IMG/VR virus record: IMGVR_UViG_3300006921_004288
Span: 1 to 53,642 of that record
Strand: one strand, 5' to 3'
Length of the DNA: 53,642 nucleotides
Source: a virus
Notes under the pieces: generated by a model
The model's database searches: none
Seen by the model: the letters and a program-made list of their open reading frames with translations, nothing else
Told to the model about the DNA's origin: nothing
In this document: positions 944 to 29,678 of the stretch, piece after piece
Layout: the number at the start of each line of letters is the position of its first letter
How positions within the stretch are numbered: the first letter of the stretch is position 1
Translations under genes and position numbers: made by a program

Positions 944-2584
944 ATGTCATTAAGTGTAGTTTTTAGTACAAAAAAAATAGATTTAGATTTTATAGAAATT
1001 ATAAAATCTACTTCTGGTGTTCATAAAATTGAGGTTTTGCCTTATGAGAACCCGGGAAAATATTCTTTAACTGAAGTTTATAACATGGGTATTGAAAAAG
1101 CAACAAACGATATTATAGTTTTTTGTCATGATGACATAAAGTTCGACACTAAAAACTGGGGTAGAAAATTACTGAACCAATTTAAAAGACATCCTAATTT
1201 TGGTATTATTGGTGTTGCTGGAAGTCGGTATATGCCATCATCTGGAAAATGGTGGGAGGACTTTTCTAAAATGCATGGAGCTGTATATCATGAACATGAA
1301 GGTAAAAGGTGGTTATCAAGATACTCTAAAGATATTGGTAATTCGTTGGATGAGGTTATCTTGGTTGATGGTTTATTTTTTGGTATTCATAAGGATAGAA
1401 TTTTAAAACCTTTTAATGAGGAGGTGGATGGTTTTCACTTCTATGATGTAGATTTTTCTTTTTCTAACCATTTAGCTGGTGTTAAAGTGGGGGTTTGTAC
1501 TGATATAAAAATAACACACTTGTCTATTGGTATGACTAATGATGAATGGGAGAAAAATAGGGTTATTTTTTCCGAAAGATATGAAGATTCGTTACCGTTA
1601 AAGATAAATCGAATAATAAGAAAAAATGAAAAGTTAAATATTTTAATAGGGTGTTTAAACTTTAATGATTATACTGGTTCAGAGTTACATATATATGAGT
1701 TAGCTAAAGGTTTAAAAAAATTAGGACACAACATTAGTATATGTTCTAATGTGGGTGGTGATATGGAGAAAAAAGTAAAATCTTTAGGTATTGACACTTT
1801 TTCTCTTCAAGAGCCTCCTGGATTTAAGCTTGGTGATGGAAAAACTAAAATTAACACACCCGAAGGAGTTAGAGTGCCGGAAAAAGGTCAGTTATATCAG
1901 ATGGCTCATGTAAAATTTGACTTACTTCATTTACACCATAAACCAATAACCGAACACCTACTAAAGTTGTACCCAACAACACCAACTGTTTGTACCATTC
2001 ATTCTGAAGTTATTGAACTGGAACATCCGGTTTTAGACAATAGAATTAAAAAATATATTTGTATACGACCTGAAATACAAGAATTTATAAACTCGAATTT
2101 TGATATTGATATTGATAAGACGAATGTAATTTATAACCCTTTTGATTCTAATAGATTTAAACCTTACCCTAAACCTAAGGTTGATAAGGAAAGAGTACTT
2201 TTTGTGGGCACTATAGATTATCTTCGCCAACAATCTATAGAAGATTTAATTGAAAAAACAAAGCTGGCAAACCAAGAACTGTGGATTGTGGGTAAAAAAA
2301 GAGTGGATTTTTTAGATGATATTAATGACGAACATGTTAAATATTTTGACCCTACTTGGAATGTTGAGTCTTATATAAAGCAATGTCATTACACAGCTGG
2401 AATTTTATTAGGTAGAACTACTATTGAGGGTTGGTTATGTAATCGTCCTGGTTGGATATATGATGTCGATTCTGGTGGAGCTATAAATGATATAACTTTG
2501 CATGAAGTCCCTAAAGATATCGTTAAGTTTCACTCCCCTAATATAATAAATCAAATAGTATCAACATACGAAGAAATATTATAA
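944..2584 (+). CDS. Two-domain glycosyltransferase (GT-A + GT-B)
   Basis: This 546-residue protein appears to fuse two sugar transferases. Residues 1 to about 225 look like a GT2-type GT-A domain, with VFCHDDIKF at 59-67 supplying the acidic metal-binding motif (HDD, 62-64). From about 230 to the end is a GT-B fold: LNILIGCLNFNDYTGSELH starts the N-terminal Rossmann half, DLLHLHHKP follows, and a second half starts at RVLFVGTIDYLRQQS. Such fusions can add two sugars in sequence. Donor and acceptor cannot be read from sequence. It opens the glycan island, 2 bases after dUTPase, and the next gene follows after 1 base. Confidence 0.8.
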   Translation: MSLSVVFSTKKIDLDFIEIIKSTSGVHKIEVLPYENPGKYSLTEVYNMGIEKATNDIIVFCHDDIKFDTKNWGRKLLNQFKRHPNFGIIGVAGSRYMPSSGKWWEDFSKMHGAVYHEHEGKRWLSRYSKDIGNSLDEVILVDGLFFGIHKDRILKPFNEEVDGFHFYDVDFSFSNHLAGVKVGVCTDIKITHLSIGMTNDEWEKNRVIFSERYEDSLPLKINRIIRKNEKLNILIGCLNFNDYTGSELHIYELAKGLKKLGHNISICSNVGGDMEKKVKSLGIDTFSLQEPPGFKLGDGKTKINTPEGVRVPEKGQLYQMAHVKFDLLHLHHKPITEHLLKLYPTTPTVCTIHSEVIELEHPVLDNRIKKYICIRPEIQEFINSNFDIDIDKTNVIYNPFDSNRFKPYPKPKVDKERVLFVGTIDYLRQQSIEDLIEKTKLANQELWIVGKKRVDFLDDINDEHVKYFDPTWNVESYIKQCHYTAGILLGRTTIEGWLCNRPGWIYDVDSGGAINDITLHEVPKDIVKFHSPNIINQIVSTYEEIL

Positions 2585-2585
2585 T

Positions 2586-3245
2586 ATGAAACTATTAATT
2601 AAATTTCCTACTAGGGTTAGAGTTAGAAAATTCTTAAATGTTTTAAGTACGTATGTTAGGTTATTAGATGATAAATCAACACCTATAATTGTTTCTTGTG
2701 ATACCGACGATTATTCCATGAAAGAAGAGTTTGTTACGGAAGTAATCGGTCAATATAAAAATGTTATAGTACAATTTAATAATAACAATACTAAAATAGA
2801 AGCAATTAATCATAATATGGACACTTTTGATTTTGATATTGTGTTATTAGCTTCAGATGATATGGTTCCTCGTATTAAAGGTTTTGATAAGATTATAAAA
2901 GAAAAAATGATGACTAATTATCCAGACACTGATGGTGTATTGTGGTTTAATGATGGTTATAAAGGTGATAAATTAAATACTTTATGTATTTTAGGTAAAA
3001 AGTATTTTGATAGGTTTGGTTATATTTACAATCCTGAATACAAATCTGTCTGGTGTGATAATGAATTTATGGATGTGTCTAAGTTATTAGATAAAGTTAC
3101 GTATTTTAATGATGTTATTATAAGGCATGAACATCCTGATTGGGGTTTTGGTTCTAACGATTCTATACACATGACTAATGTAAAAAATGAAAGTAGTGAT
3201 AGACTTACCTATGAAAGAAGAAAACAGCAAAATTTTGGATTATGA
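2586..3245 (+). CDS. GT2-like glycosyltransferase
   Basis: A 219-residue putative GT-A glycosyltransferase. The N-terminal half shows a Rossmann-like pattern (IIVSCDTDD, then VIVQFNNNNTKIEAINH), followed by VLLASDDMVP at residues 87-95, where SDD (90-92) is the likely metal/nucleotide-sugar motif. HEHPDWGFG near the C-terminus may supply a late histidine as in many GT-A enzymes. It is short for GT2 and lacks any membrane segment, so it probably acts in the cytoplasm. It overlaps the next gene by 4 bases (ATGA). Substrate is unknown. Confidence 0.7.
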   Translation: MKLLIKFPTRVRVRKFLNVLSTYVRLLDDKSTPIIVSCDTDDYSMKEEFVTEVIGQYKNVIVQFNNNNTKIEAINHNMDTFDFDIVLLASDDMVPRIKGFDKIIKEKMMTNYPDTDGVLWFNDGYKGDKLNTLCILGKKYFDRFGYIYNPEYKSVWCDNEFMDVSKLLDKVTYFNDVIIRHEHPDWGFGSNDSIHMTNVKNESSDRLTYERRKQQNFGL

Positions 3246-4099
3246 ATCAAATATGTACAGTATCAGATATAAACTATCTAACAAAAGGATTAACATTATA
3301 CGAATCCTTACTTAAAAATACAAATAACTTTGTTTTACATTACTTGTGTATTGATGATAAAACCTACAATAAGATTGTTAGATTTGAGTCTAGTACTTTA
3401 AAAGTATACAATCTTAAAGACCTATTACTTAATGATGAATCACTTAACAAACTAAAAACTTCACAGTATAATTATTTTTGTTGGTCTCTATCTTCATATT
3501 TTAGTAATTTTCTTTTACACAAATTAAATAAAGATATAACCTATATTGATAGTGATATCTATTTTCATCAAAGTTTAGATATTATTTTAGATGAAATTGG
3601 TGATAGGGATGTTGGTATTTTTAGACATAGACAATTCCCTATGGAGTCATATAGACCTGAGGGTTTGTTTAATGTTGGGGTGGTACATTTTAAATGTAGT
3701 GATTTAGGTATTAAAACTTCTGATTGGTGGAAAGATTCTGTTTTACATAAAAAACATCCAGAATATGCTACTTGTGGTGACCAAAAATATTTAGATTATT
3801 TTCCTATACTATGCCCAAAAGAGTCTATATACATTGATGTTAATATTGGTCATGGAGCTCCTTGGATGTGGCAATTATATAACTTCATAGATAAAGATAC
3901 TATTATGTGGGGGGATTTAAAACAAAAATTAATTTTTACACACTTTTCACAGTTTGAGTATGACAAAGAAACTTACGTACCTTCTACTATGCATCACATA
4001 TACACACCTTTAAATATGTACAAAGAAATTAAAGAATTAAAAGAAATATATGATGAGTATTACTATAATTTAAAAGTAACAGAAAAAAAATACGAATGA
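3242..4099 (+). CDS. GT8-like glycosyltransferase
   Basis: This 285-residue protein resembles retaining GT-A transferases of the GT8 kind. It starts with the ICTVSDINYLTKGLTLYESL element, where such enzymes bind the nucleotide and place loops over it. The DxD motif is YIDSDIYFH (DSD, 103-105). GDQKYLDYF and IGHGAPWMWQ further on match the positions of the acceptor and second metal-site motifs in related enzymes. It overlaps both neighbours by 4 bases, so translation is probably coupled. The transferred sugar is unknown. Confidence 0.75.
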   Translation: MNQICTVSDINYLTKGLTLYESLLKNTNNFVLHYLCIDDKTYNKIVRFESSTLKVYNLKDLLLNDESLNKLKTSQYNYFCWSLSSYFSNFLLHKLNKDITYIDSDIYFHQSLDIILDEIGDRDVGIFRHRQFPMESYRPEGLFNVGVVHFKCSDLGIKTSDWWKDSVLHKKHPEYATCGDQKYLDYFPILCPKESIYIDVNIGHGAPWMWQLYNFIDKDTIMWGDLKQKLIFTHFSQFEYDKETYVPSTMHHIYTPLNMYKEIKELKEIYDEYYYNLKVTEKKYE

Positions 4100-4755
4100 T
4101 TAAAACTATACATAGACATACATTTAGAGAAGATTTATTAATTAAGGGTGGTTATGTTTTAGATTTGGGGTGTAGTGACTTTATTTTTACTAGATATATG
4201 TTAAAAAATGAGATGAAAGTAATTTCTTTAGACCCACGTAAAAACATTTATGTGTTCGAAGATTTACTCACCAACCCTAATTTTACCTTTTTAGAAAAAG
4301 CTTGTGTTGGGGTAAAGAATGGTGATACCGCACCCTACCATACCTATCAACATTGGGGGTCAAACTCTTTAATAAACACACCAGAAATGTTATCTAACGA
4401 AACTAATTTAGGTCATTCTAAAAATCCATTTAAAGAAACTTACAATGTGAAAGTAACTACAATAGCTGAAATAATGTCCGAGTTTAATATAGATAAATTT
4501 GAATTGATAAAAATGGATGTTGAGGGTATGGAATATGAAATTTTAAGTAATTTACCTGATAATTGTTCTAAACAAATATCTATAGAATTTCATGACTTTT
4601 TATCTTTAAACCCCTCCGATGATATTGAAGAATATCATATAGATTTACTTAAGAATAACCTCTCAACATATAAAGTTGAGTATGAGGATAAGTCACCTCT
4701 TAATGGGTTTAAAAATACCTTTCAGAGAGATGACGTATTATATATAGAAAAATAA
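4096..4755 (+). CDS. FkbM-family methyltransferase
   Basis: A 219-residue SAM-dependent methyltransferase. The SAM motif is VLDLGCSDFIFTRYM, and the FkbM-type signature LIKMDVEGMEYEIL is clear in the second half. FkbM enzymes O-methylate sugar hydroxyls or polyketides; in glycan clusters they cap or modify sugars. That fits its place between glycosyltransferases. Its ATG overlaps the previous stop (ATGA) and the next gene follows after 2 bases. The site it methylates cannot be predicted. Confidence 0.85.
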   Translation: MIKTIHRHTFREDLLIKGGYVLDLGCSDFIFTRYMLKNEMKVISLDPRKNIYVFEDLLTNPNFTFLEKACVGVKNGDTAPYHTYQHWGSNSLINTPEMLSNETNLGHSKNPFKETYNVKVTTIAEIMSEFNIDKFELIKMDVEGMEYEILSNLPDNCSKQISIEFHDFLSLNPSDDIEEYHIDLLKNNLSTYKVEYEDKSPLNGFKNTFQRDDVLYIEK

Positions 4756-4757
4756 TT

Positions 4758-5642
4758 ATGAAAATAGCGTTTGGAATGATTGTGTTCGAGGGTGATTACG
4801 TTCTTAAACAATGTTTAGAACAAGTCTACCCTTTTGCAGAACAAATATTAATTGCTGAAGGCCCAGTATCTTATTGGCAAAGACAAGGTCGTACAACCTC
4901 GTTAGATGGTACCAACAAAATTTTAGATGAGTTTCCTGACCCAGATAATAAAATTAAAGTAGTGCATGGTCAGTTTAATGAAAAAGATGACCAGTGTAAG
5001 GCATATATGAAACACATAAATGATGATATAGATTATATATGGAATTTAGATTCTGATGAAATATATAAAACGGAAGATTTAAAAAAGATAATAAATTTTT
5101 TAAAGACTGAATTACCTACAAGTGTTGGTGTTAGAAGTTGTTCTTTCTATGGTGGATTTGACGATTACCTAACTGGTTTTGAATTAAATAGGGATAATTT
5201 TTTAAGAATTTTTAGGTACACTAAAGGTTCTACTTGGTTGACTCATAGACCACCAACTATTCAATACCCACCTAATTCAAATATAATTAGAAAACATATA
5301 GATAGTGAGACCCTTTATAATAAATTGGGTGTTCAAATGTATCACTATTCGTATACCTTTCCTGACCAAGTCTATAAAAAGGTAAATTATTATAAAGATA
5401 GTGTTAGTAAAGATAATTGTATTGACAACTATTTCGACAGAGTTTACATACCTTGGTTAAGTGGTAATCGTGAATCTGTAGAAAAAGAGTTTTTAGGTGT
5501 GCATGAATTTAAGCCTCATTCTCGTGGAGAATGTTTTACACAACCATTTATTTTATCACATCCAGAATCTATACTTAAAGATATGCCAGAACTTAAAAAT
5601 AAATTTGCCACACAATTAAAAAAATATATTAATGTTAAGTAA
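4758..5642 (+). CDS. GT2-like glycosyltransferase
   Basis: A 294-residue GT-A type enzyme. It begins with KIAFGMIVFEGDYVLKQCLE, as in GT2 proteins that start with a short strand and then a helix of conserved leucines. The acidic motif is NLDSDEIY (DSDE, 98-101). A basic stretch around HRPPTIQYPP and HYSYTFPDQVYKK follow, probably acceptor contacts. No membrane segment is seen. The last 11 bases overlap the next gene in another frame. Substrate unknown. Confidence 0.75.
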   Translation: MKIAFGMIVFEGDYVLKQCLEQVYPFAEQILIAEGPVSYWQRQGRTTSLDGTNKILDEFPDPDNKIKVVHGQFNEKDDQCKAYMKHINDDIDYIWNLDSDEIYKTEDLKKIINFLKTELPTSVGVRSCSFYGGFDDYLTGFELNRDNFLRIFRYTKGSTWLTHRPPTIQYPPNSNIIRKHIDSETLYNKLGVQMYHYSYTFPDQVYKKVNYYKDSVSKDNCIDNYFDRVYIPWLSGNRESVEKEFLGVHEFKPHSRGECFTQPFILSHPESILKDMPELKNKFATQLKKYINVK

Positions 5643-6456
5643 CGAAGAAGGTAACCAACTAATAAAAAAATATTTAAGTGAAAATAAAATTTTTACTGTA
5701 GGTAGGGTTGGTTCTTCGGAAATAATAGCGTCTAATTCTTTTGATGGTGGACAGGAAATATCTCGAGGTATTATAAGTATGTTACAAAATAATGCTGGGG
5801 TATATGGAAATTCAATAGAAGATTTCTGTAAAGAGTATCTGGAAGGGATAAAGTGTTGTGACATTCAAGTATATTGGGCTATAGAAGGCATAAAAGCCTC
5901 TCAAAATAATCTTTTTGGTAAGTATTGTTCGGAATCCACAATCGTTGATAGTAGAACTGTCGAACCTTTTTATTTTGAGGATTCTTGGGCTAGTGCATTA
6001 CAAAACAAAAAAGTTTTGGTCGTTAGTCCTTTTGCTGAATCCATAAAGACCCAATACGAAAAAAGATTGTTAATTTGGCCTAATAAATTATTACCTGAGT
6101 TTAATTTAATACCTTATAAAGCTGTACAATCTATAGGTGGAATAGGTCCTCACTCTTCTTGGTTTGAGTCATTAAATATTATGAAAGAAGAAATTAGTGA
6201 ATTAGACTTTGATGTTGCTTTATTGGGTTGTGGTGGTTATGGAATGCCTTTAATGTCTCACATAAAAAATACGTTAAATAAATCCGCTATATATGTAGGG
6301 GGTGGTTTACAAATATTATTTGGGGTTAAAGGACGGAGATGGGATGCTCACCCAGAAATAAGTAGTTTTTACAATGAACATTGGGTTAGGCCTAATGATA
6401 ATGAAAAACCAAAAGGGATGTCTCTTATGAATAACGAGCCTTCCACTTATTGGTAA
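5632..6456 (+). CDS. Putative GT-D-like glycosyltransferase
   Basis: A 274-residue protein with an early RVGSSEIIA motif, then VALLGCGGYGMPLMSHI and SAIYVGGGLQILFGVKGRRW, ending with HWVRPNDNE. This arrangement recalls bacterial proteins described as having a GT-D fold, found in polysaccharide loci. The assignment is from motif memory only. The gene starts with ATG inside the last 11 bases of the preceding gene. A domain of unknown function in sugar metabolism remains possible. Confidence 0.5.
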   Translation: MLSNEEGNQLIKKYLSENKIFTVGRVGSSEIIASNSFDGGQEISRGIISMLQNNAGVYGNSIEDFCKEYLEGIKCCDIQVYWAIEGIKASQNNLFGKYCSESTIVDSRTVEPFYFEDSWASALQNKKVLVVSPFAESIKTQYEKRLLIWPNKLLPEFNLIPYKAVQSIGGIGPHSSWFESLNIMKEEISELDFDVALLGCGGYGMPLMSHIKNTLNKSAIYVGGGLQILFGVKGRRWDAHPEISSFYNEHWVRPNDNEKPKGMSLMNNEPSTYW

Positions 6457-6473
6457 ATAATTTAATAGTTTTT

Positions 6474-7286
6474 ATGATACCAGTAATTTTAATACATAAA
6501 GGATACCAAGACTATCTTGGTTGTGCGATTAATCAAGCACTTAAAAATAATCCGGTACATCTAATAGGTGATACTATCCCACCTATAACACACGAAAACT
6601 TTAAGTTTGAAAACTTAAATGAGTATTGTTTAGAATGCGATGAATTTAGGTCTATTTACGAACATTTAAATACCACTCCTGTTGAGTATGAGATTTTTTG
6701 TTATCAAAGATGGTTTATATTAAAAAATTACATGGAAAAACAAAATTTAGATAAAATATTTTATATTGACTCTGACGTTTTGCTTTTTGTAAATATAACA
6801 GAAGAGTGGAAACATTTTGACCAATATATTTTAACTTTAGCACATAGAAGTGCTGGGACAAATTCATTTATCACACTAGAAGGGGTTACTAGTTTTTGTA
6901 ATTTTTTAATGGACACTTATAAAAATAAAAACTCTTATAATTACAAAAAAATTGCTTCACACTATAATATAAGAAGGGAATTTGGTTTACCTGGTGGTGT
7001 GTGTGATATGACATTTCTAGAATTTTTCCATTATTGTGCTGATTGTGGTGGTGGACCTGGTAGGGTAGGTGAAATGATGCAAATAGTTAATGGTTCAACC
7101 TACGACCATAATATTAATACTCCTGACCAAGGATTTTCTTTTAAAAATGGGAAAAAAGATTTTATATTAAAAGAGGGTATTCCTTATATTTTTAATAATA
7201 CTTTAAATAAAGAAATAAAATTTAACTCATTACACTTCCAAGGAGGAGCCAAAAATTTAATAAGAAGTGTGTATGATAGATGTTAA
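6474..7286 (+). CDS. GT-A type glycosyltransferase
   Basis: A 270-residue enzyme starting MIPVILIHKGYQDYLG at the ATG 6474. An upstream in-frame TTG at 6450 would overlap the preceding gene and adds no conserved residues, so it was not used. The DxD motif is FYIDSDVLLF (DSD, 99-101). The second half is rich in Gly and Cys (YCADCGGGPGRVGEMM). The last residues, SLHFQGGAKN, place a histidine late in the chain as in many retaining GT-A enzymes. Its end overlaps the next gene by 14 bases. Donor and acceptor are unknown. Confidence 0.7.
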   Translation: MIPVILIHKGYQDYLGCAINQALKNNPVHLIGDTIPPITHENFKFENLNEYCLECDEFRSIYEHLNTTPVEYEIFCYQRWFILKNYMEKQNLDKIFYIDSDVLLFVNITEEWKHFDQYILTLAHRSAGTNSFITLEGVTSFCNFLMDTYKNKNSYNYKKIASHYNIRREFGLPGGVCDMTFLEFFHYCADCGGGPGRVGEMMQIVNGSTYDHNINTPDQGFSFKNGKKDFILKEGIPYIFNNTLNKEIKFNSLHFQGGAKNLIRSVYDRC

Positions 7287-7872
7287 CGAATCTTGGAAAA
7301 ATGAAGTTGTTTTTAAAAAACAATTAGAGTTAAACTTAAAAGAATTATCTTCTAAATCTAGTTATCCTAGTCATTGGATTGATTTTATTAATTTAATAAA
7401 TCTTTTTAATCCAAAATCTGTTTTGGATGTGGGTTGTGGTTGTGGTGCTATATATGAATTATGTAGAAAAGAACTACCTGACTTATCTTATTTTGGTATA
7501 GACTACGCTCCTGAAGCAATAAATGTAGCCAAAGAAAAATGGGGAGACTCTTACTTTGATGTGCTTGATTACAAACAATTAACTAATTCTTATCTATCTA
7601 ATTTTGACCTTATACATATGGGAGCTTTACTTGATGTGTTGGATAATGGTGATGAGGCATTGGAGTATATTTTATCTTTATCACCTAAAAATATATTAGT
7701 AGGTAGGATGAAAATAACAAATGAAGAGAGTTATTACACAACTTATAAAGCTTATGATGAAATAACTACCTGTGCCTATTACCATAGTAAAAATAATTTC
7801 TTACATTTATGTGAAAAGTATGATTATGGTATACATAACATAAATGATAATTTTTATTTAGTAAAAAAATGA
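7273..7872 (+). CDS. Class I SAM-dependent methyltransferase
   Basis: A 199-residue methyltransferase with motif I SVLDVGCGCGAIYEL and the acidic end of strand 2 in YFGIDYAPEAI. DLIHMGALLDVLDNGDEA gives the motif III/IV region. The ATG at 7273 is preferred to the GTG two codons upstream. It overlaps the preceding gene by 14 bases and the next by 4. Its surroundings suggest it methylates a sugar or a sugar-bearing product, but small class I enzymes act on many substrates. Confidence 0.75.
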   Translation: MIDVNESWKNEVVFKKQLELNLKELSSKSSYPSHWIDFINLINLFNPKSVLDVGCGCGAIYELCRKELPDLSYFGIDYAPEAINVAKEKWGDSYFDVLDYKQLTNSYLSNFDLIHMGALLDVLDNGDEALEYILSLSPKNILVGRMKITNEESYYTTYKAYDEITTCAYYHSKNNFLHLCEKYDYGIHNINDNFYLVKK

Positions 7873-8528
7873 GTGACATAAAACAATTAAGTGAGTCTTT
7901 AGTACAACCTATATTAACTATAGGTAGAAAAGTTGCTATAGTGGGTTCCAGTGCAGTATTGTTAAAAAAAGAATACGGTGATATAATAGATAGTTATGAT
8001 ACTGTAATTAGATTTAATAGAGCTCCTGTTGTTGGTTACGAAAACTTTGTTGGTTCTAAAACTGATATAAGGGTGGTTAACGCTCACGTATTTACTAACA
8101 CTTCTTGTGAGGGTGATGAAAGATTTAAAACAGCAAAACTAACACAACCTAAGAATTTTATTAAAGAATTAGAAAATACCACTATATTACACGTAGGTAC
8201 TGCTGGGGCAGGTTCTGTTGACCCAGATGAAATGGGTTGGTCCGATAGGTCTACCCACATTCACCCAACATCAAAAGCTTTTATTATGAATTACAATGGA
8301 ATTCCGATTAGTGACCTAGGTAAGGCTCCTACGGTAGGTATTAAAACAATTAAATTAATGATACTAAATAATTTAACCCCCCACTTATTTGGTTTTGGCT
8401 TAGACGAGTCTGGTGTATCTCACTACTGGGAGGATAGGGACCCAGTTAGTCAGTGTCATGCTTATAGTGATGAAAGAAATAAATTAAAACAGTGGGAAAA
8501 ACAAGTACAAATTAAAATCTTTAGATAA
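7869..8528 (+). CDS. GT29 sialyltransferase-like glycosyltransferase
   Basis: This 219-residue protein carries the sialylmotifs of GT29, the family that uses CMP-activated sugars. Motif L spans about residues 22-66: VAIVGSSAVLLKKEYG, then DSYDTVIRFNRAP and FVGSKTD. Motif S spans about 154-180: PTVGIKTIKLMILNN, then LFGFGLDE. A motif III/VS-like HYWED is at 185-189, with His185 the likely catalytic base. It is shorter than eukaryotic GT29 enzymes and has no signal anchor. CMP-sugar synthetase, Kdo-8-P synthase and aldolase genes lie within 4 kb downstream, which suggests a locally made CMP-ulosonate as donor (inference). It overlaps both neighbours by 1 to 4 bases. Confidence 0.82.
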   Translation: MSDIKQLSESLVQPILTIGRKVAIVGSSAVLLKKEYGDIIDSYDTVIRFNRAPVVGYENFVGSKTDIRVVNAHVFTNTSCEGDERFKTAKLTQPKNFIKELENTTILHVGTAGAGSVDPDEMGWSDRSTHIHPTSKAFIMNYNGIPISDLGKAPTVGIKTIKLMILNNLTPHLFGFGLDESGVSHYWEDRDPVSQCHAYSDERNKLKQWEKQVQIKIFR

Positions 8529-13087: not shown

Positions 13088-13103
13088 TAAATAAAATTTA
13101 AAT

Positions 13104-13511: not shown

Positions 13512-13514
13512 CTT

Positions 13515-13931: not shown

Positions 13932-14829
13932 GAGTGTGTTAATAACTGGTGGTCTAGGCCATATAGGTTCTAAACTTATAAAAGAGTTACCTTTAGAATA
14001 CGACCTTATTGTGGTAGATAATTTACTAACCCAGAGATTTTGTTCTTTGTTTGACATCGGTAGACCTATTAAATTTATGGATAAGTGTATAAGTGATTTG
14101 ACCTTTGATGACTTAGATTCGGTGGACATTGTTATTCACTTAGCTGCTATAACTGATGCTGCTAATAGTTTTAATAACGTTAAACAAACGGAAAACATTA
14201 ATTTCACTCTAACAAGCACTTTTATTGATTTGTGTGATGAAGCTAAATGTAAATTTATTTTCCCATCATCTACAAGTGTTTATGGTGCAGCTGTAGATGT
14301 TGTTCATGAAGATAATGATGATTTTCTTAACCCTCAAAGTCCTTATGCTACAACGAAAATAGGCATAGAAAAAAAATTAAAAAAATATAAAAATAATTAC
14401 CTAATATTAAGATTTGGTACTATATTTGGGCTAAGTGTTGGTATGCGATTTCACACAGCAATAAATAGATTCTGTTACGATGCCTCTTTGGGTAAACCGT
14501 TAAAAGTGTGGAAAGAAAATTATAATCAATATAGACCTTATTTAGGGTTAAATGATGCGATAAATAGTATTTTATTTTTTATTGAGGATGACCATTGGAA
14601 CGCAACATACAATATTTTAAGTGGGAATTATATGTTATCTGACATTGTCGATAATATAAGTTCTTTAGTGGACATTGACATTTCTATGGTCACTACACCA
14701 CTTTTAAATCAATTTTCTTATGAGGTAAGTGATGATAAAATAAGGTCTTTAGGTTGGAAACCTAAGGATGACTTGGTGTTTGAAATAACTAATACATTAA
14801 AACAATTTAAAGATTTATATAATGAATAG
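13924..14829 (+). CDS. NAD-dependent sugar epimerase/dehydratase (SDR)
   Basis: An extended SDR of 301 residues. VLITGGLGHIGSKL binds NAD(P), SSTSVYG supplies the catalytic Ser/Thr, and SPYATTKIG the YxxxK pair. No ATG precedes the Rossmann motif after the overlap with the cupin gene. Translation must start at the TTG 13924 or the GTG 13936. It overlaps the following SDR gene by 8 bases. Such enzymes epimerise, dehydrate or reduce nucleotide sugars; the exact reaction is not readable. Confidence 0.8.
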   Translation: MSKSVLITGGLGHIGSKLIKELPLEYDLIVVDNLLTQRFCSLFDIGRPIKFMDKCISDLTFDDLDSVDIVIHLAAITDAANSFNNVKQTENINFTLTSTFIDLCDEAKCKFIFPSSTSVYGAAVDVVHEDNDDFLNPQSPYATTKIGIEKKLKKYKNNYLILRFGTIFGLSVGMRFHTAINRFCYDASLGKPLKVWKENYNQYRPYLGLNDAINSILFFIEDDHWNATYNILSGNYMLSDIVDNISSLVDIDISMVTTPLLNQFSYEVSDDKIRSLGWKPKDDLVFEITNTLKQFKDLYNE

Positions 14830-15538
14830 AAGAATATTGATATCTGGTGGGGAAGGTAATTTAAATAAACAATTACGTAATTATAATCAAACTGATATAC
14901 TCCATATACCAACCCAATTAGAAATGGATATAACCAAAATAGATGAGGTTGAGCGAGTTATAAAAGAGTTTTCACCAACTCATATTATCCATACAGCTGC
15001 TATAACAAGACCTATGTCAATACATGAACAAAATCCAACTATAAGCATACAAACTAATATAGTGGGTACCGCTAATATAGCTTTAATGTGTTTAAAATAT
15101 AAAATTAAGTTAATTTACACTTCTACTGATTATGTTTATAATGGTGTTAAAGGTGATTATAAAGAAACTGATGGTGTTAACCCATTTACTAGTTATGGGT
15201 GGTCTAAGTTGGGTGGTGAGTGTTCTGTTAAAATGTGTCCAAATCATTTAATACTTAGATTGGCTATGTGTGAAAGACCCTTTCCACACCCAAAAGCTTT
15301 AGTAGATATGGTTAAAAGTCCTATATATGTAGACCAAGTAGCTAATATAATATTAAAACTTATTGATGAAGTAGGTGTGATAAATATAGGGGGTAAAGCT
15401 CAATCAGTTTTTGATTTTGTTAAAAAAGATAACCCTAATATAGATAAAATAACATTGAGCGAAATCGGTGATGTCAGTATGGCCACAAATTGTTCAATGA
15501 ATATAGATAAATTAAAAACTTTGATGACTAATGATTAA
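14822..15538 (+). CDS. RmlD-like sugar-nucleotide reductase (SDR)
   Basis: A 238-residue SDR similar to dTDP-4-dehydrorhamnose reductase. It starts RILISGGEGNLNKQLRNY, with HIIHTAAITRPM and STDYVYNG as in RmlD, and TSYGWSKLGGE for YxxxK. It would reduce a 4-keto deoxysugar to the final product. At 238 residues it is shorter than typical RmlD (about 290-300), losing parts of the C-terminal substrate domain. It overlaps both neighbours by 8 bases. With the two cupins, the C-methyltransferase and the first SDR it forms a deoxysugar sub-cluster. Confidence 0.75.
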   Translation: MNRRILISGGEGNLNKQLRNYNQTDILHIPTQLEMDITKIDEVERVIKEFSPTHIIHTAAITRPMSIHEQNPTISIQTNIVGTANIALMCLKYKIKLIYTSTDYVYNGVKGDYKETDGVNPFTSYGWSKLGGECSVKMCPNHLILRLAMCERPFPHPKALVDMVKSPIYVDQVANIILKLIDEVGVINIGGKAQSVFDFVKKDNPNIDKITLSEIGDVSMATNCSMNIDKLKTLMTND

Positions 15539-16142
15539 AATTAATTTAGGTTGTGGTAATAATCCTTTAAAAGATTATATAAATGTGGATATGGACACCA
15601 TAGAAGATTTAAGAGAAAGGTATCCAGATAAAGAGTTTCCTGACACTACTATTATAAAAAACTGGGACATTTTTAATTTACCTGTTCCAGATAATTCTGT
15701 GGATGAAGTTAGAGCTGATTGTTTATTTGAACATTTGACGTTTAAAGAAGAGAAGAGGGCTTTTCATGAAGTTAAAAGAGTTTTAAAACCTGGGGGTACA
15801 TTTAACTTATCTGTACCGGATTTAGAGCACATAATCAAATCTTGGTTAGAGGCTGAAGATGACTGGAAGGATTGGTATAGGGATGATGATGAAGCTATAT
15901 CACAAAAACACTGGTTTGGAACTTATGAGTATTCCTATAAAAATAGGTGGGGTTATGCTATGGCTGTATTATACGGTAGTCAAAATGGTGATGGTCAACA
16001 TCATAAAAATGGGTATACTATTGGTAAATTAAAGAATATCGCTAAGGTTATGTCTTTTGATGTTGTTTCTTATGAAATATATCCGTGGCATAATGATAAT
16101 GGTGTGTCAAAAATAATAAGATTTATAAGTAAAAAACAATAG
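15531..16142 (+). CDS. Class I SAM-dependent methyltransferase
   Basis: A 203-residue methyltransferase with SAM motif INLGCGNNPLKDYINVD. The Asp of motif II follows, and then a post-I region NLPVPDNSVDEVRADCLFEH and VLKPGGTFNLSVPDLEH. This form is common in polysaccharide loci next to GT2 genes. The target is unknown. It overlaps the SDR by 8 bases and is followed after 2 bases by an oxygenase gene. Confidence 0.78.
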   Translation: MIKINLGCGNNPLKDYINVDMDTIEDLRERYPDKEFPDTTIIKNWDIFNLPVPDNSVDEVRADCLFEHLTFKEEKRAFHEVKRVLKPGGTFNLSVPDLEHIIKSWLEAEDDWKDWYRDDDEAISQKHWFGTYEYSYKNRWGYAMAVLYGSQNGDGQHHKNGYTIGKLKNIAKVMSFDVVSYEIYPWHNDNGVSKIIRFISKKQ

Positions 16143-16144
16143 AT

Positions 16145-17041
16145 ATGAAAATACCAGATTATTCAGATGTGTGGGAAAATTTTATAAAAGATAATTATTT
16201 TCCAACAAGCCTAAGAAATCCAAGAACTTTAGATTTTAAAGAATTTAAAGATATGGTTTACAATAAACCGGAAAAAACAAAACAATTAATTTTAGATATG
16301 TTATCCGGTGATGTACTAGTTTTAAAAAATGCGTTAAGTAGAGAAGAAGCCATCAAAATAAAAAAAGAATTATATGATTATGGTAATGATACACCAGAAC
16401 AAGATTTAAGAGAAGATAGTAAAATACCAAATTATCACATAAAAAATCAATTAAGGTATAAAATTAAAGATGGTTATAATGAATTAGCTCATTCATATTA
16501 TTTTTATCGTTGGAATGAAGATACACTTAAATTATTTAGTCGTATTGATGAGGTGTGGGACACTGTTAAAATTTTTAATGGTTTAGACATTAACGAATAT
16601 AAAAATAATCTTCCTGAAGATAAAATAATAGATAGGGTACAAGTACTTCATTATCCACTAAATAGTGGAGAAATAACATGTCATTGTGATAAAGCGAGAT
16701 GGCAAAAAACAAATATAGGTTTTAATCTAACTGAGATTGGTGAGGATTATGATGTGGGTGGTGCGTATTTTTTAAACTCTGATGATGATGAAGTTCATAT
16801 GGAACCTTATATAGAAATTGGAGATGCTCCTATATTTCTACCTAGCATATTTCATGGTGTTAGAACCCCTAAATCTGATAATCACGATATTGATTGGGGT
16901 GCATCAAGAGGTAGGTGGTTATTATTGGCTCAAACAGTACAATCACAATGTTTAGAGAATAGAGAAAAATCTGTGAGTTTAGAAAATTACAAAAAAGACC
17001 CTACAAAAATTTTAGAAAATTTTAAAAAAGATTATAAATAA
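16145..17041 (+). CDS. Putative 2-oxoglutarate/Fe(II) oxygenase
   Basis: A 298-residue protein whose second half has the jelly-roll ligand pattern. HxD is His180 and Asp182 in EITCHCDKARW, a GGAYFL element follows, the distal His237 is in PSIFHGVRTP, and Arg257 lies in SRGRWLLL. These fit an iron-dependent 2-oxoglutarate dioxygenase. The first 170 residues are helical and lack a known motif. It differs in sequence from the PhyH-like enzyme at 10483-11190, so the island has two independent oxygenases. Substrate unknown. Confidence 0.7.
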   Translation: MKIPDYSDVWENFIKDNYFPTSLRNPRTLDFKEFKDMVYNKPEKTKQLILDMLSGDVLVLKNALSREEAIKIKKELYDYGNDTPEQDLREDSKIPNYHIKNQLRYKIKDGYNELAHSYYFYRWNEDTLKLFSRIDEVWDTVKIFNGLDINEYKNNLPEDKIIDRVQVLHYPLNSGEITCHCDKARWQKTNIGFNLTEIGEDYDVGGAYFLNSDDDEVHMEPYIEIGDAPIFLPSIFHGVRTPKSDNHDIDWGASRGRWLLLAQTVQSQCLENREKSVSLENYKKDPTKILENFKKDYK

Positions 17042-17042
17042 T

Positions 17043-18077
17043 ATGGATTATAAAGATAGTTTAACCATATTAGTACCTTTATGGGGGAGATTTCCTGAAA
17101 CACTTAGAATGCTTAAACATATGTCAGATGTTAAAATGCCTTTTAAAATTTTACTTGCTGATGGTGGTGGGAATGACCATAAAGAAAAATTTAATAAAAA
17201 AAATTACCCTGATTTAAATTTAGAATATATTTCTTTTGGTCGTGATAATAATATTCATGATTTTATGGTTAAAATGAATAAATCCTGCCAAAAAATAGAT
17301 ACACCATTAACTATTATGGTAGATAATGATGATTTATTGTCTGTAGATGGGTTAATAAAAGGAATTAAATTTTTAAATAATAACCACGACTACACCAGCT
17401 ATAGAGGTGATGTACATTGTGTTTTCGGTGAAAAATCTATATACAAACAACCAACTAGAAGCGCTTCAACAGCTTTAGATAGATTTATATTTCCTAAAGA
17501 TGGGATAAACTCAGGTTGGCATGATATTGTTAGGACCTATACCCTCAAAACTTTTTTTGAAATTATGGATAACACTAAAACTAATGACTTACAGTTAGTT
17601 TTTTCTATTAATAGGTATTGGCATACATTATATGGTAAATCCTACAAAGATAATACTAGTCCTTTTTATTATCACATAGCTGGTAATAGTTTAGTTTGGG
17701 ATAAGGGTCTTTATTCACCAACCAGAAAATGGTTTGTTGATGGGGCTTTTGTAGACTCTATGGGTATTAATATTAGTATGGTTTACAATTTATTAAATAA
17801 GAAAAATGAATTGTCTGGTTTAGATGGTAGAGTTATCATAGCTAAAAGAATTTTGAGTCATTTGGCTGAATTAAATGGTATAGAATCAAAGGATTTTAAT
17901 ATTGTAGATAAAAAAATTGTCGAGTCCCTTGTGTCTTCGTATAATTATGATGAATTAGTTTTATCAACACTAGATAAACCAAATAAAAATACTACCTTTG
18001 TATTAAGTGGAACATTACCAGAAATTTCATTAGATTATGGTAGAGATAAAATAAAAATATTAGAACTATTAGGGTGA
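17043..18077 (+). CDS. GT2-like glycosyltransferase
   Basis: A 344-residue GT-A enzyme. It opens LTILVPLWGRFPETLRML, as GT2 enzymes do, and has MVDNDDLLS (DND at 94-96) as the metal/nucleotide site. An unusual long second half contains FIFPKDGINSGWHD and KWFVDGAFVDSMG, with no membrane segment. Its stop overlaps the GTG of the aminotransferase by 4 bases. The sugar transferred is unknown. Confidence 0.78.
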   Translation: MDYKDSLTILVPLWGRFPETLRMLKHMSDVKMPFKILLADGGGNDHKEKFNKKNYPDLNLEYISFGRDNNIHDFMVKMNKSCQKIDTPLTIMVDNDDLLSVDGLIKGIKFLNNNHDYTSYRGDVHCVFGEKSIYKQPTRSASTALDRFIFPKDGINSGWHDIVRTYTLKTFFEIMDNTKTNDLQLVFSINRYWHTLYGKSYKDNTSPFYYHIAGNSLVWDKGLYSPTRKWFVDGAFVDSMGINISMVYNLLNKKNELSGLDGRVIIAKRILSHLAELNGIESKDFNIVDKKIVESLVSSYNYDELVLSTLDKPNKNTTFVLSGTLPEISLDYGRDKIKILELLG

Positions 18078-19021
18078 TAAATTTATTTAATATAGAAAAT
18101 TATAATATAGATACCTCAAAATTTAGTCACTATTTACATGGCTCAATAGTTAGTGAATTTGAGTCTAACTTTTGTGAGTATGTTGGGGCAAAATATGCGT
18201 GTTCTGTTAATAGTGCTACGAACGCAATATTTTTAGCTTTATTAAATAAAAATCAACACGTAATAGTTCCTAGTATGATACCCCCAGTAGTGTGTAATGC
18301 TATATTAACTTCTGGAAATAAGTTAGATTTTAATGATAATACTGATTGGGTCGGTGATTCTTACATTCTTCATGAATTTGATGATTACAAGATTATTGAT
18401 TCTGCACAAAAAGTAGATTGTAATCAATTTAAAAACGAAGCAAATGACGAAGATTTAATGATATTTAGTTTTTACCCTACTAAACCTATAGGTAGTTCTG
18501 ATGGGGGTATAATTGTATCAAATGATTATGATAAGATACGGTGGTTTAAAGAAGCTACTATGAATGGTATGACATATGCACATAATAACTGGGATAGGAC
18601 TATCAAATTTCCAGGTTATAAAATGTACATGAATTCTATTCAATGTCATATAGCAAATGAAAATTTAAAATTATTGGATTTTAAAAAAATGAAACTTAGT
18701 TCTATTAGAAAAAAATATAATAAGGCTTTTGGTTATGATAATACTTCTGACCATTTATATAGGATTGAGGTGGATAATCGTGATGAGTTTATTGATAACA
18801 TGAAATCTAGTGGTATTATTTGTGGTGTACACTATGACGCTTTACACGAGGTAAAAGCCTACCGTGAATCTACTAGTAGGCCGTATAATGTTACAGATAA
18901 AATATGTAAAAATACTTCAACTGTAGCTAAAAAAACAGTTAGTATACCTTTTCATGAAAAATTAGATTATGATGATAGTGTGAATTACATTATAGAAAAG
19001 GTAAATAGATATAGGAAATGA
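18074..19021 (+). CDS. DegT/DnrJ/EryC1-type PLP aminotransferase
   Basis: A 315-residue sugar aminotransferase. ACSVNSATNAIFLALL is the cofactor phosphate loop, and FSFYPTKPIGSSDGG holds the PLP lysine at Lys137. It transfers an amino group to a 3- or 4-keto nucleotide sugar, so it could complete a pathway started by the FdtA-like isomerase at 13515-13931. The gene uses GTG at 18074, overlapping the preceding stop; the next in-frame ATG would remove the cofactor loop. The enzyme is somewhat shorter than the usual 370-400 residues. Confidence 0.82.
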   Translation: MINLFNIENYNIDTSKFSHYLHGSIVSEFESNFCEYVGAKYACSVNSATNAIFLALLNKNQHVIVPSMIPPVVCNAILTSGNKLDFNDNTDWVGDSYILHEFDDYKIIDSAQKVDCNQFKNEANDEDLMIFSFYPTKPIGSSDGGIIVSNDYDKIRWFKEATMNGMTYAHNNWDRTIKFPGYKMYMNSIQCHIANENLKLLDFKKMKLSSIRKKYNKAFGYDNTSDHLYRIEVDNRDEFIDNMKSSGIICGVHYDALHEVKAYRESTSRPYNVTDKICKNTSTVAKKTVSIPFHEKLDYDDSVNYIIEKVNRYRK

Positions 19022-19992
19022 AAACAGCTTTAATTACGGGAATTAACGGGCAAGATGGCTCTTATTTAGCTGAATTACTACTAGATAAAGGGTATGAGGT
19101 TTGGGGTATACTAAAGCGTAATTCTGTTTCTGAAAATCAAACAGCTAGAATTCCTGACAACGTATTTAAAAGATTAAACTTGGTTTATGGTGACTTACTA
19201 GATATGTCATCTTTATTACAAGTCTTACAAAAATCTAATCCTGATGAGGTATATAATTTAGCTGCTCAGTCTCATGTTAGAATTAGTTTTGACCAACCGG
19301 TTTACACGTCACAAGTTACTGGGTTAGGAACTCTTAACCTATTAGAAGCTATTAGATTAACCAACCAAAACATAAAAGTTTATCAAGCAAGTAGTTCAGA
19401 GATGTTTGGAAATAATGTAGATAGTGATGGTTACCAGAGAGAAACCACATCTATGAATCCAGTGTCCCCGTATGGGTGTGCAAAAGTATTTTCCTACAAC
19501 ATATGTAGAAATTATAGAAATTCTTATGGTATGTTTATTTCTAATGGCATATTATTTAATCACGAATCTCCTAGAAGAGGTACTAATTTTGTTACCAATA
19601 AAGTGGCAAAAGAAGCTGTTAAAATAAAATTAGGTTTATCGAATGAATTAAAACTTGGTAATTTAAATGCTAGTAGGGATTGGGGTCATGCAAAAGACTA
19701 TGTTGAGGCTATGTGGTTAATTTTACAACATAACAAATCTGATGATTTTGTATGTTCTACAGGTGTATCACATACAGTTAAGGATTTAGTAGAGTACGTA
19801 TTTCAATCCTTGGAGTTGGACTGGAAAGATTATGTCGTTCAAGATAAAAAATATTTAAGACCTGAGGAACTTGAGCATCTTAAAGGTGACTGTTCAAAAA
19901 TAAAAACTGAATTAGGTTGGTCACATAATTATAATTTTCAGTCTATGATGGATGAAATGATTGAGTATTGGTTAGAATATTATGAACAATAA
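19018..19992 (+). CDS. gmd: GDP-mannose 4,6-dehydratase
   Basis: It converts GDP-mannose to GDP-4-keto-6-deoxymannose. The NADP motif is ALITGINGQDGSYLAELL. YNLAAQSHVRISFDQP and YQASSSEMFG are classic Gmd stretches, and SPYGCAKVFSYN supplies YxxxK. NHESPRRGTNFV also matches Gmd. At 324 residues it is about 40-50 shorter than E. coli Gmd, mostly in the C-terminal part. The next gene is the fucose synthase, overlapping by 11 bases, so both steps of GDP-L-fucose synthesis are encoded together. Confidence 0.93.
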   Translation: MKTALITGINGQDGSYLAELLLDKGYEVWGILKRNSVSENQTARIPDNVFKRLNLVYGDLLDMSSLLQVLQKSNPDEVYNLAAQSHVRISFDQPVYTSQVTGLGTLNLLEAIRLTNQNIKVYQASSSEMFGNNVDSDGYQRETTSMNPVSPYGCAKVFSYNICRNYRNSYGMFISNGILFNHESPRRGTNFVTNKVAKEAVKIKLGLSNELKLGNLNASRDWGHAKDYVEAMWLILQHNKSDDFVCSTGVSHTVKDLVEYVFQSLELDWKDYVVQDKKYLRPEELEHLKGDCSKIKTELGWSHNYNFQSMMDEMIEYWLEYYEQ

Positions 19993-20896
19993 ACCTAAAA
20001 CTTTAATTACTGGGGGTAGTGGTTTAGTTGGGTCCGCTATTGGTGGTGTGAAAATGAAAGTTAGTAGTAACTTTGATTTACGAAATTCGACTATTACTGA
20101 TAAATTATTTAAAGATATTGAGCCTAAAAATGTTATTCATTGTGCGGCTAAAGTAGGTGGATTAGGAGGGAACATGAATATGAAAGGTGAATTTTTTTAT
20201 GATAACATAATGATTAATACAAATGTTATAGAATCTTGTAGAAAATACAACATAGAAAAACTAGTGTGTTTTTTATCTACTTGTGTATTTCCCGACAATG
20301 TCGAATACCCATTAACTGAAAAAAAGATTCATTTGGGTGAACCCCACCATTCTAATTATCCGTATGCTTACGCTAAAAGAATGGCGGAAATACAAATTAG
20401 AGCTTATAGAGAACAATATGACTTAAATTACGTATGTGTTATTCCAACTAATATATATGGACCAAATGACAATTTTAATTTAGATAATGGGCATGTTATA
20501 CCTTCACTTATCCATAAATGTTATTTAGCAAAACAAAGTAACAAACCATTTAACGTTTGGGGTAGTGGGAAACCTTTAAGAGAATTTATATATTCTAAAG
20601 ATGTTGCTAAATTAACTGAGTGGGTATTAGATAATTATGATGAAAAAGAACCTATAATTTTATCTACCTCAGAAGAAGTTTCAATTAAGGAAGTGGTTAA
20701 TATGATTGTAAAACATATGTCTTTCGAAGGGGATGTTATATGGGAAGATGATAAACCAGATGGTCAATTTAGAAAACCTAGTGACAATAGTAAATTATTA
20801 TCTTATTTACCAGATTTTAAATTTACTAGTTTAGATGATGGTCTAAAAGAAACTATAGAGTGGTTTGTTGATAATTATGAAAGCTGTAGAAAATAA
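19982..20896 (+). CDS. fcl: GDP-L-fucose synthase
   Basis: A 304-residue SDR that epimerises and reduces GDP-4-keto-6-deoxymannose to GDP-L-fucose. TLITGGSGLVGSAI binds NADPH. HCAAKVGGLGGNM is the characteristic Fcl loop, LSTCVFPD places the catalytic Ser and Cys, and YPYAYAKRMAE the Tyr/Lys pair. GSGKPLREFIYSKD also is diagnostic. Length is close to E. coli WcaG (321). It completes the pathway begun by Gmd and is the last gene of the island; 18 bases separate it from phoH. Confidence 0.93.
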   Translation: MNNKPKTLITGGSGLVGSAIGGVKMKVSSNFDLRNSTITDKLFKDIEPKNVIHCAAKVGGLGGNMNMKGEFFYDNIMINTNVIESCRKYNIEKLVCFLSTCVFPDNVEYPLTEKKIHLGEPHHSNYPYAYAKRMAEIQIRAYREQYDLNYVCVIPTNIYGPNDNFNLDNGHVIPSLIHKCYLAKQSNKPFNVWGSGKPLREFIYSKDVAKLTEWVLDNYDEKEPIILSTSEEVSIKEVVNMIVKHMSFEGDVIWEDDKPDGQFRKPSDNSKLLSYLPDFKFTSLDDGLKETIEWFVDNYESCRK

Positions 20897-27661: not shown

Positions 27662-27672
27662 AATAAAAAAAT

Positions 27673-27855
27673 ATGGAATTTTTTAAAACATATAAAGATA
27701 AACCGAATAAAGAGCTTTTTGAGATGATGTCTAATTTAAAAACTGAATTCGATAAGACTAAATCTTTGTTGATTGGTTTGACCCATCACTTAGATGATAT
27801 AGAAAAAAAATTTAAACTTATAGAGTCTGAATTAAAAAAACGTAAAGTTACTTAA
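27673..27855 (+). CDS. Small coiled-coil protein
   Basis: A 60-residue protein (MEFFKTYKDKPNKELFEM...) that looks like one amphipathic coiled coil, with a basic tail ELKKRKVT. It sits between two structural genes with short gaps (11 bases upstream, 2 downstream), so it is probably translated with them. It may be a chaperone or a small virion part. No homolog was recognised. Confidence 0.6.
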   Translation: MEFFKTYKDKPNKELFEMMSNLKTEFDKTKSLLIGLTHHLDDIEKKFKLIESELKKRKVT

Positions 27856-27857
27856 TT

Positions 27858-29654: not shown

Positions 29655-29655
29655 A

Positions 29656-29663: not shown

Positions 29664-29678
29664 TATAAAGATAATTTA

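Follow-up and report, generated by a model that had tools for sequence, protein, structure and literature searches.

Why would a tailed phage carry some 20 kb of genes for building a glycan, and onto what would that glycan be placed? The question is raised by the DNA of a T4-related tailed phage, a virus record of 53,642 bases (IMG/VR record IMGVR_UViG_3300006921_004288; this whole stretch is the window referred to below), in which an island of 25 intact plus-strand open reading frames (ORFs; g3 to g27, positions 944-20896) lies between the genes for dUTPase (g2, 339-941) and PhoH (g28, 20915-21658). Pfam and NCBIfam searches assign most of the island to sugar-nucleotide synthesis, glycosyl transfer and methylation. 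Its genes are separated by gaps of −28 to +16 bases and the gene caller kept zero minus-strand genes, in agreement with a sequence-only reading of the window that had placed about 24 overlapping or nearly overlapping plus-strand genes at exactly these coordinates. That reading had described a large, intact glycan-building operon in a virus, a description borne out by the family searches and by the purifying selection acting on genes in related loci. We find that the island occupies a fixed spot in the genomes of large aquatic phages at which sets of sugar genes are swapped, apparently allowing each virus to make a distinctive sugar decoration. That this spot is a slot, that its cassettes are exchangeable and that the locus is functional, we hold with high confidence.

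The dUTPase-PhoH slot in related phages

Relatives were retrieved by similarity to PhoH or to the sigma-like protein g33, neither of which, as bait, selects for glycan genes. Of 67 related contigs searched for a dUTPase gene, 57 had one (22 of 26 in the first set, 35 of 41 in the second); two PhoH-retrieved loci (L026 and L027) were left out of this search, and 79 newly fetched loci of the g33-retrieved set were scanned, 41 of them receiving the whole-contig dUTPase search and nine more lying in contigs of the first set. The gene was unmatched in ten contigs (G001, G003, G015, G024, G029, G045, G060, G061, G063 and G065). G001 begins inside the island; G024, which also has neither g31 nor g32 near PhoH, probably lies outside the lineage, and the remaining eight may be contig ends. 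With near-duplicates (G051, G053, G054, G055 and G059) left out, 53 slots were compared, the window's included; in G038 and G050, where PhoH was unmatched, g33 served as the reference point for locating it.

These slots span 2.8-22.3 kb and contain 726 plus-strand genes and 2 minus-strand ORFs at a median coding density of 0.993. Grouped at 40% identity and 70% coverage, their genes form 273 families, 129 of which are confined to one slot, while the widest occurs in 22 of the 53. All 53 lineage slots are occupied, and each holds at least one glycosyltransferase domain, the N-domain of g3, which stands in the first or second gene in 50 of them. The sequence-only reading had supposed that the island was gained as one block and had proposed a search of relatives' flanks for an empty site. 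We reject one acquired block, because no slot among the 53 is empty, content differs among most branches and the difference in GC content is small (0.299 in the island, 0.319 in the rest of the window); the only window genes that recur widely are the g3 N-domain, g26, g27 and, more loosely, g12.

Outside this lineage the arrangement dissolves. In 51 weaker PhoH loci (L031-L081, 34-41% identity) g2, g3, g31, g32 and g33 are all absent from the available flanking DNA, so that the slot can be regarded as peculiar to this lineage. In the distant cultured relatives Mel-JY01 and immuto, PhoH comes third after the capsid gene, with neither an adjoining dUTPase nor g31, again suggesting a lineage trait rather than a simple insertion between old neighbours. 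Just beyond PhoH the genome becomes constant. The 12 sibling loci with complete downstream DNA all carry every one of the nine genes g29-g37, and among 107 loci chosen around the g31/g32 region, with some contigs represented twice, g31 occurs in 105 (missing from L028 and L105) and g32 in 106 (missing from L028). These are the two further glycosyltransferases that the sequence-only reading had noticed after PhoH.

Between such constant flanks the cassettes differ. Twelve relatives have a PhoH at 89% identity or more to the window's; 11 of them share 0-3 of the window's 25 slot genes and one, G026, shares 9. Of 105 slot pairs with PhoH identities of 89-97%, 69 share fewer than 20% of their families; at 97% or above, 3 of 14 pairs do so, the median overlap there being 0.74 and most pairs being near-identical contigs. 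Two pairs of assembled contigs illustrate what looks like exchange. On the left, from dUTPase to within the first glycosyltransferase gene, G034 and G033 have 97.8% identical DNA over 1.8 kb; on the right, starting about 1 kb before PhoH, identity is 97.7% over 15 kb (92.3% in the first 1.9 kb). Their slots nonetheless have only 2 families in common, of 8 and 12. G047 and G049 encode identical dUTPase and PhoH proteins and have 2 families in common, of 4 and 6, with one glycosyltransferase gene, 97% identical, at opposite slot ends. Homologous recombination through the constant flanks would yield such pairs, and is the mechanism that we infer.

Could the window itself be a chimeric assembly, as the sequence-only reading allowed? 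A second contig (IMGVR 3300025099_003636, 99,619 bases), not necessarily an independent assembly, contains g9-g27 complete at 100% identity, with g8 cut by the contig end, and continues into PhoH and structural genes, making a chimera unlikely. Stronger evidence comes from other contigs with loci that are akin but not the same, such as G026, in which g3-g7 follow dUTPase immediately, in the same order and at 60-87% identity. Neither a megablast search with the first 12 kb of the island nor a search with the g31 protein found a match among 50,697 phage records.

Selection on the slot genes and solubility of their products

The gene content of the slots was surveyed with Pfam on representatives of 131/132 and 115/116 of the 248 non-window families of the first slot survey (ORFs of 78 and 81 codons being omitted); that survey, from which the selection analysis and family profiles were also drawn, lacks six edge genes. 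Among the 25 commonest families listed per scan, GT2 glycosyltransferases, epimerases, DegT aminotransferases, GDP-mannose dehydratases and FkbM and other methyltransferases lead, and GT10, GT25, galactosyltransferase and sulfotransferase families are also present. By family profiles, GT11-like genes occur in 22 slots and GDP-mannose (guanosine diphosphate mannose) dehydratase in 22 of 53, 18 of these having a GDP-fucose synthase-like partner; profile homologues of g12 occur in 21 of 53. The slots of G009, G011 and G012 each have two same-family GDP-mannose dehydratase copies, about 60% and 78% identical to g26.

Ratios of nonsynonymous to synonymous substitution rates (dN/dS, Nei-Gojobori) were calculated for 15 slot pairs. 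For the 186 usable genes of 198 shared, the median was 0.093 and none exceeded 0.5, values that are approximate, since pairs overlap (two slot trios give three pairs each) and many dS values are near saturation. The window contributes nine genes, compared with G026, with a median of 0.178. Slot genes are thus under purifying selection, which disfavours relaxed "stuffer" DNA.

In a simple and strict hydropathy scan, 707 of the 726 slot proteins had no membrane segment, 18 had one and 1 had two, while six or more segments were scored in 32 of 346 bacterial control ORFs of at least 250 residues. Since no slot protein among the 726 has three or more hydrophobic segments, the slots contain no recognisable Wzx/Wzy-type flippase or polymerase, ligase or polytopic lipid-primer enzyme, and these membrane functions appear to be missing from them.

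A probable CMP-ulosonate and GT29 module

Some genes of the window's cassette may activate and transfer an eight-carbon acidic sugar. Gene g14 (9737-10486) encodes a Kdo-8-phosphate synthase, KdsA (Kdo, 3-deoxy-D-manno-octulosonic acid; PF00793 1.3e-41; structure 1fwn 2.7e-57), and g16 (11187-11903) a cytidine monophosphate (CMP)-sugar synthetase of NeuA/PseF-like type (PF02348 5.8e-16; NeuA structure 6ifd 6.7e-21). The "Kdo-type path" of the sequence-only reading proves to be a hybrid. The first step stood in part, as g14 passes one Kdo-8-phosphate synthase equivalog cut-off of three (NF003543, 260 against 242 bits) and misses TIGR01362 (251 against 314) and NF009109 (183 against 457); the second did not, as g16, which falls below the PseF cut-off and aligns with KdsB only over its first ~60 residues, is by similarity nearer to NeuA-type CMP-sialate and pseudaminate synthetases.

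Close to these genes, g11 (7869-8528) encodes a sialyltransferase-type protein of family GT29 (PF00777 2.7e-22; ST3Gal-I structure 2wnb 9.8e-12). It matches the Pfam GT29 profile and carries what we take to be sialylmotifs: a III-like HYW at residue 185 and a VS-like HxxxxE at 197, found as patterns, and an L region found by alignment. A GT29 enzyme of Arabidopsis is a CMP-Kdo transferase by genetic evidence (PMC11288761) and GT29 is present in some marine bacteria (PMC5811610), making a GT29 transferase of Kdo type plausible. We consider g11 a probable ulosonate transferase using a CMP-activated donor, to which the neighbouring KdsA and CMP-synthetase genes are the sole pointers.

The association recurs. 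Seven relatives have NeuB in their slots where the window has KdsA; all eight KdsA or NeuB slots carry a CMP synthetase, and seven of the eight carry a GT29-like gene, found in no other slot. Besides the window, the GT29-like calls pass the Pfam cut-off in G017, G018, G019, G021 and G022, and in G023 the call was made with a custom profile. The GT29 profile matched 6 of 50 virus records and 0 of 296 genomes of the presumed host order, taken as that of a Flavobacteriales metagenome-assembled genome, in a scan where the controls were unmatched too.

Several other sequences touch on these families. In G018, G019 and G021-G023, homologues of L201:2924-4075 share with it a C-terminal GT29-like domain behind about 150 residues that look disordered and lysine-rich. 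A 484-kb uncultured phage, LR756508.1, encodes proteins resembling g11 in four places, one at 324812-325435, and has a related portal gene, with no match to g31 or PhoH at E 0.001. In the cultured Synechococcus phage S-SCSM2R (L161:14965-16386), the annotated KdsA and KdsB genes lie on opposite strands and overlap at their ends, a run of glycosyltransferases being several kb away. Five records of 2-4 kb filed as "Listeria" or "Staphylococcus phage" (OR849176.1, OR849177.1, OR847352.1, OR847353.1 and OR849944.1), which contain weak g14 matches, may be bacterial DNA.

Where the glycan would be placed

The sequence-only reading had offered three acceptors, the virion, the surface of the infected cell and DNA. 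Sequence cannot decide among them, though DNA is the least likely; decoration of the virion is likely to be a better account than modification of the host envelope or of DNA. We lean, by no great distance, towards a swappable glycan locus, serotype-like in character, in a Bacteroidota phage of moraphage type; its enzymes would act in the cytoplasm and decorate virions. In this scheme the constant glycosyltransferases (the g3 N-domain, g31 and g32) would build a common stem, and the variable interior would furnish what a strain-specific outer part requires, namely nucleotide sugars, glycosyltransferases and methyltransferases. Judging from the enzyme families, the outer part in the window might comprise L-fucose, an amino-deoxysugar bearing a methyl group and an eight-carbon ulosonic acid, activated with CMP and attached by the GT29 enzyme. 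The soluble-looking enzymes would act in the cytoplasm on a virion protein, the kind of acceptor known from chloroviruses and mycobacteriophages, and recombination in the flanks would exchange cassettes and so switch the surface "serotype".

The choice of a protein acceptor draws on g31 (22538-23596, plus strand), a GT-B glycosyltransferase whose best solved relative is AmGGT (PDB 8xsg), with a profile E of 1e-17 and a structural Z of 30.6 over 318 residues, the next other protein scoring 23.2; the structural model has a pLDDT (predicted local distance difference test) of 88. In sequence and modelled fold g31 resembles the glucosyltransferases Agt and AmGGT, and glucosyl transfer is predicted. 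Agt, an AmGGT homologue, extends N-linked glucose on cytoplasmic adhesins, as described in PMC12159676, and in the chlorovirus PBCV-1, which encodes GDP-fucose synthesis itself and whose glycosyltransferases are free of membrane domains, the capsid glycan is joined to asparagine through β-glucose, as described in PMC4691112. This resemblance of g31 to AmGGT and Agt, together with the Asn-glucose start of chlorovirus capsid glycans, makes a protein acceptor favoured, not proven; by analogy, a virion protein is in our judgement an even call. The other constant enzyme, g32 (23601-24398; PF00535 6.7e-6), is a GT2 glycosyltransferase; its best fold match, the fucosyltransferase WrtF (1e-12), was not used, the identity being 15% and the GT-A fold common.

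A number of observations weigh against virion decoration by such a locus. Both the glycan and its acceptor are deduced from genes alone, and soluble enzymes would also suit decoration of a lipopolysaccharide (LPS) core, or of a host intermediate carried on a lipid at the inner membrane; the hydropathy scan, moreover, scored g39, apparently a two-helix protein, as one segment. AmGGT itself, according to PMC12159676, accepts only oligosaccharides and not glycopeptides. A GT41-family protein primer was found in 0 of 13 contigs, and the 12 proteins tested, among them g35, g36, g37 and g40, show no enrichment of N-x-S/T sequons. Pfam and PHROG searches gave no named family for g5, g23 or g24, and the RmlA and RmlB steps of the amino-deoxysugar branch were not recognised in the window's cassette, so that the host's enzymes would be needed. 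Finally, about two independent lineages account for the link between KdsA or NeuB and GT29, and a CMP-synthetase-like gene stands in G026 without KdsA, NeuB or GT29.

The strongest competitor, which we regard as possible if rather unlikely, is host-envelope remodelling: the locus would alter the LPS core, O-antigen or capsule of the infected cell and so block rival phages or grazers during infection or dormancy. Bacterial O-antigen loci show similar cassette turnover. The slots include fucosyltransferase (GT10, GT11), GT25 and Caps_synth families, GT29 is known from some marine bacteria (PMC5811610), and a role at the host surface has been proposed for jumbo cyanophages (PMC7824862) and pelagimyophages (PMC7029224). 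Against it stand the lack of any protein with three or more hydrophobic segments among the 726 and the nature of the closest relative of the core enzyme g31, which acts in an oligosaccharide and glycoprotein system.

Placement of the glycans on phage DNA, as in T4 and phages with hypermodified bases, is very improbable. The dCMP and dUMP hydroxymethylases belong to the thymidylate-synthase family, and zero genes of that family, the one base-modification route searched for, were detected in the window clade's four largest contigs, which may be incomplete (G011, 298 kb; G014, 232 kb; G026, 211 kb; G016, 156 kb), making DNA the least likely acceptor; among 50 records, five had matches (G017, G024, G031, G032 and G034). 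Base modification would also have no need of 10-20 variable sugar genes. In its favour, dUTPase adjoins the slot and DNA is a documented acceptor of phage glycosyltransferases (PMC12619734, PMC7029224).

We give equally little credence to a free or secreted glycoside (a signal, toxin or antibiotic-like secondary metabolite), of which the oxygenases, methyltransferases and deoxysugar genes are reminiscent and for which a like idea has been voiced for a cyanophage cluster (PMC7824862): each slot has several glycosyltransferases, and the constant g31 and g32 just outside are glycosyltransferases too. That the locus is neutral "stuffer" filling a large head, an option raised for cyanophage LPS clusters (PMC3037559) and in keeping with the eightfold range of slot sizes, is hardly credible, being already contradicted by the low dN/dS values, the coding density and the near-absence of minus-strand ORFs.

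Gene identities in the window

All the genes below lie on the plus strand. On the left, the dUTPase gene g2 (PF00692 4e-26) forms the constant flank, followed by g3 (944-2584), a two-domain glycosyltransferase (GT2_5 and GT4; PF13712 2.6e-32, PF13439 2e-11) whose N-domain is the constant left-edge enzyme. Eight glycosyltransferases had been counted in the island by the sequence-only reading. Four lie above Pfam cut-offs: g3, g7 (4758-5642; GT2, PF00535 9.5e-9), g8 (5632-6456; GT-D fold, PF22882 1.8e-7) and g11. The GT2-like g4 (2586-3245), below the Pfam cut-off, matches PHROG 14945 "glycosyltransferase" (6e-16), the only named glycosyltransferase match in a PHROG scan of ten proteins, and the GT8-like g9 (6450-7286; PF01501 2.3e-4) is below cut-off. 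The other two had been called by appearance alone, since g5 (3242-4099), a putative glycosyltransferase with a 71% identical gene at the same place in G026, has no Pfam or PHROG match and the possible glycosyltransferase g24 matches only a PHROG of unknown function. All four methyltransferases were recovered: g6 (4096-4755; FkbM, PF05050 1.1e-14), the S-adenosylmethionine-dependent g10 (7267-7872; PF08242 2.9e-11) and g22 (15531-16142; PF08241 2.6e-10), and the deoxysugar C-methyltransferase g17 (11903-13087; PF08484 1.2e-47). Of two supposed oxygenases, g15 (10483-11190) is a PhyH-type 2-oxoglutarate oxygenase (PF05721 7.3e-14), while g23, a possible oxygenase by eye (g23 and g24 together span 16145-18077), matches neither Pfam nor PHROG.

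At the family level the deoxysugar sub-cluster is as described, g17-g21 with g25: g18 and g19 (13104-13931) are cupin sugar isomerases of RmlC/FdtA type (PF05523 1e-6 and 2.4e-40), g20 and g21 (13924-15538) an NAD-dependent epimerase and an RmlD-like reductase (PF01370 1e-27; PF04321 1.3e-31), and g25 (18074-19021) a DegT sugar aminotransferase (PF01041 3.4e-34). So is GDP-fucose synthesis, by the pair g26 and g27 (19018-20896), a GDP-mannose 4,6-dehydratase and a GDP-fucose synthase-like protein (PF16363 5e-119; NF047922 2.2e-69, below cut-off). Beside the ulosonate genes, g12 (8528-8839) is a HAD-like phosphatase with capsule phosphatases among its relatives (TIGR01689 4.9e-5, well short of the cut-off) and g13 (8812-9744) a DHDPS/NAL-family aldolase (PF00701 1.8e-15). 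PhoH (PF02562 9.4e-59) closes the slot on the right.

Further downstream, g35-g37 (25514-31682) are large genes beside the structural genes with zero PHROG matches; their position is kept among relatives and their sequences diverge fast, and g37 is rich in serine and threonine.

Lineage and host

The capsid, protease, portal and large terminase of the window match PHROGs so named, and the closest named portals are those of Microcystis phage Mel-JY01 (39% identity) and Flavobacterium phage immuto (37%). Moraphages, as described in PMC12619734, have genomes of 200-307 kb sharing dUTPase, PhoH, ClpA, a sigma factor, portal, capsid and protease; they have mostly Bacteroidota hosts by prediction, DnaK in some and four core groups of glycosyltransferases. 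Family matches in the window include dUTPase, PhoH, portal, prohead protease, capsid and a T4-like large terminase. The sigma-like match of g33 is weak (PF04542 0.009, below cut-off), and the ClpA-type g56 and DnaK g55 were assigned by eye, g55 also finding bacterial relatives. The genes for this phage DnaK (47694-49559, minus strand) and the apparent ClpA/B-type ATPase (49801-51843, plus strand) are adjacent. The window is a fragment, and related contigs reach 298-299 kb (G011, G017). Shared genes, the size of related contigs and DnaK fit a moraphage-type lineage, and Bacteroidota hosts are probable, the window's DnaK being closest to those of Bacteroidota metagenome-assembled genomes (68% identity in a Flavobacteriales genome, 62-66% in others).

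Comparison with known systems

Bacterial O-antigen and capsule loci combine constant flanks, swappable cassettes and rare sugars, and the slot differs from them in having no recognisable flippase, polymerase, ligase or polytopic lipid-primer enzyme. Glycosylation of mycobacteriophage virions involves few glycosyltransferase genes, as against many sugar-nucleotide and transferase genes in the slot. The likeness there would lie in the acceptor: mycobacteriophages carry glycans on capsid and tail tube proteins, as described in PMC12619734. Chloroviruses share with the slot a viral GDP-fucose pathway and glycosyltransferases without membrane domains, and have a capsid glycan; they are a eukaryotic-virus system whose glycan structures are solved (PMC4691112), whereas the slot is known from its genes alone, and we claim no homology of the whole system.

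The sequence-only reading's picture of T4-like phages, in which one or a few glycan genes are the rule, is incomplete: the cyanophages P-SSM2 and S-SSM7 have large LPS clusters (PMC3037559), pelagimyophages have hypervariable islands rich in glycosyltransferases (PMC7029224) and the clusters of jumbo cyanophages are polymorphic (PMC7824862). The T4-like cyanophages P-SSM2, S-SSM7 and S-SM2 have large LPS-type clusters, one of them in P-SSM2 near phoH; that account covers few genomes with cyanobacterial hosts and leaves functional and "stuffer" roles open (PMC3037559), whereas here 53 slots stand at one fixed position, the hosts are probably Bacteroidota and purifying selection was measured. 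The host recognition cluster of pelagimyophages is likewise hypervariable at a conserved position and rich in glycosyltransferases, and its authors propose a change of the host surface; tail fibres are mixed in and divergence is read as gradual (PMC7029224). In the present lineage, by contrast, glycan genes lie between dUTPase and PhoH, and two pairs have different cassettes in near-identical flanks.

The moraphage paper leaves variable islands to future work, and the words "fucose", "GDP" and "lipopolysaccharide" are absent from its main text (PMC12619734). In the open-access literature, among the matches listed, phage LPS-type clusters were found, and a dUTPase-PhoH slot, differing cassettes in near-identical flanks and a phage GT29/CMP-ulosonate module were not. 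Phage LPS-type clusters are already known; the slot organisation described here appears to be new.

Implications

Large LPS-type clusters in phages have long been known, and whether they work or serve as packaging filler was left open (PMC3037559). The intact cassettes of this slot, under selection, exchangeable and present throughout the lineage, argue that here such clusters do work and that selection favours diversity itself. A bolder proposal, which we put forward tentatively, is that these phages have serotypes: a strain-specific virion glycan, sometimes capped by GT29 with a sialic-acid-like or Kdo-like sugar, may be switched by whole-cassette swaps in the manner of bacterial O-antigens. 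The 53 loci, with 273 gene families (40% identity), also constitute a natural library of glycan-building genes, the CMP-ulosonate and GT29 module included. Should virions prove to carry the glycan, phages would have a counterpart to bacterial serotypes, with a bearing on adsorption, on grazing by protists and on immune recognition of phages.

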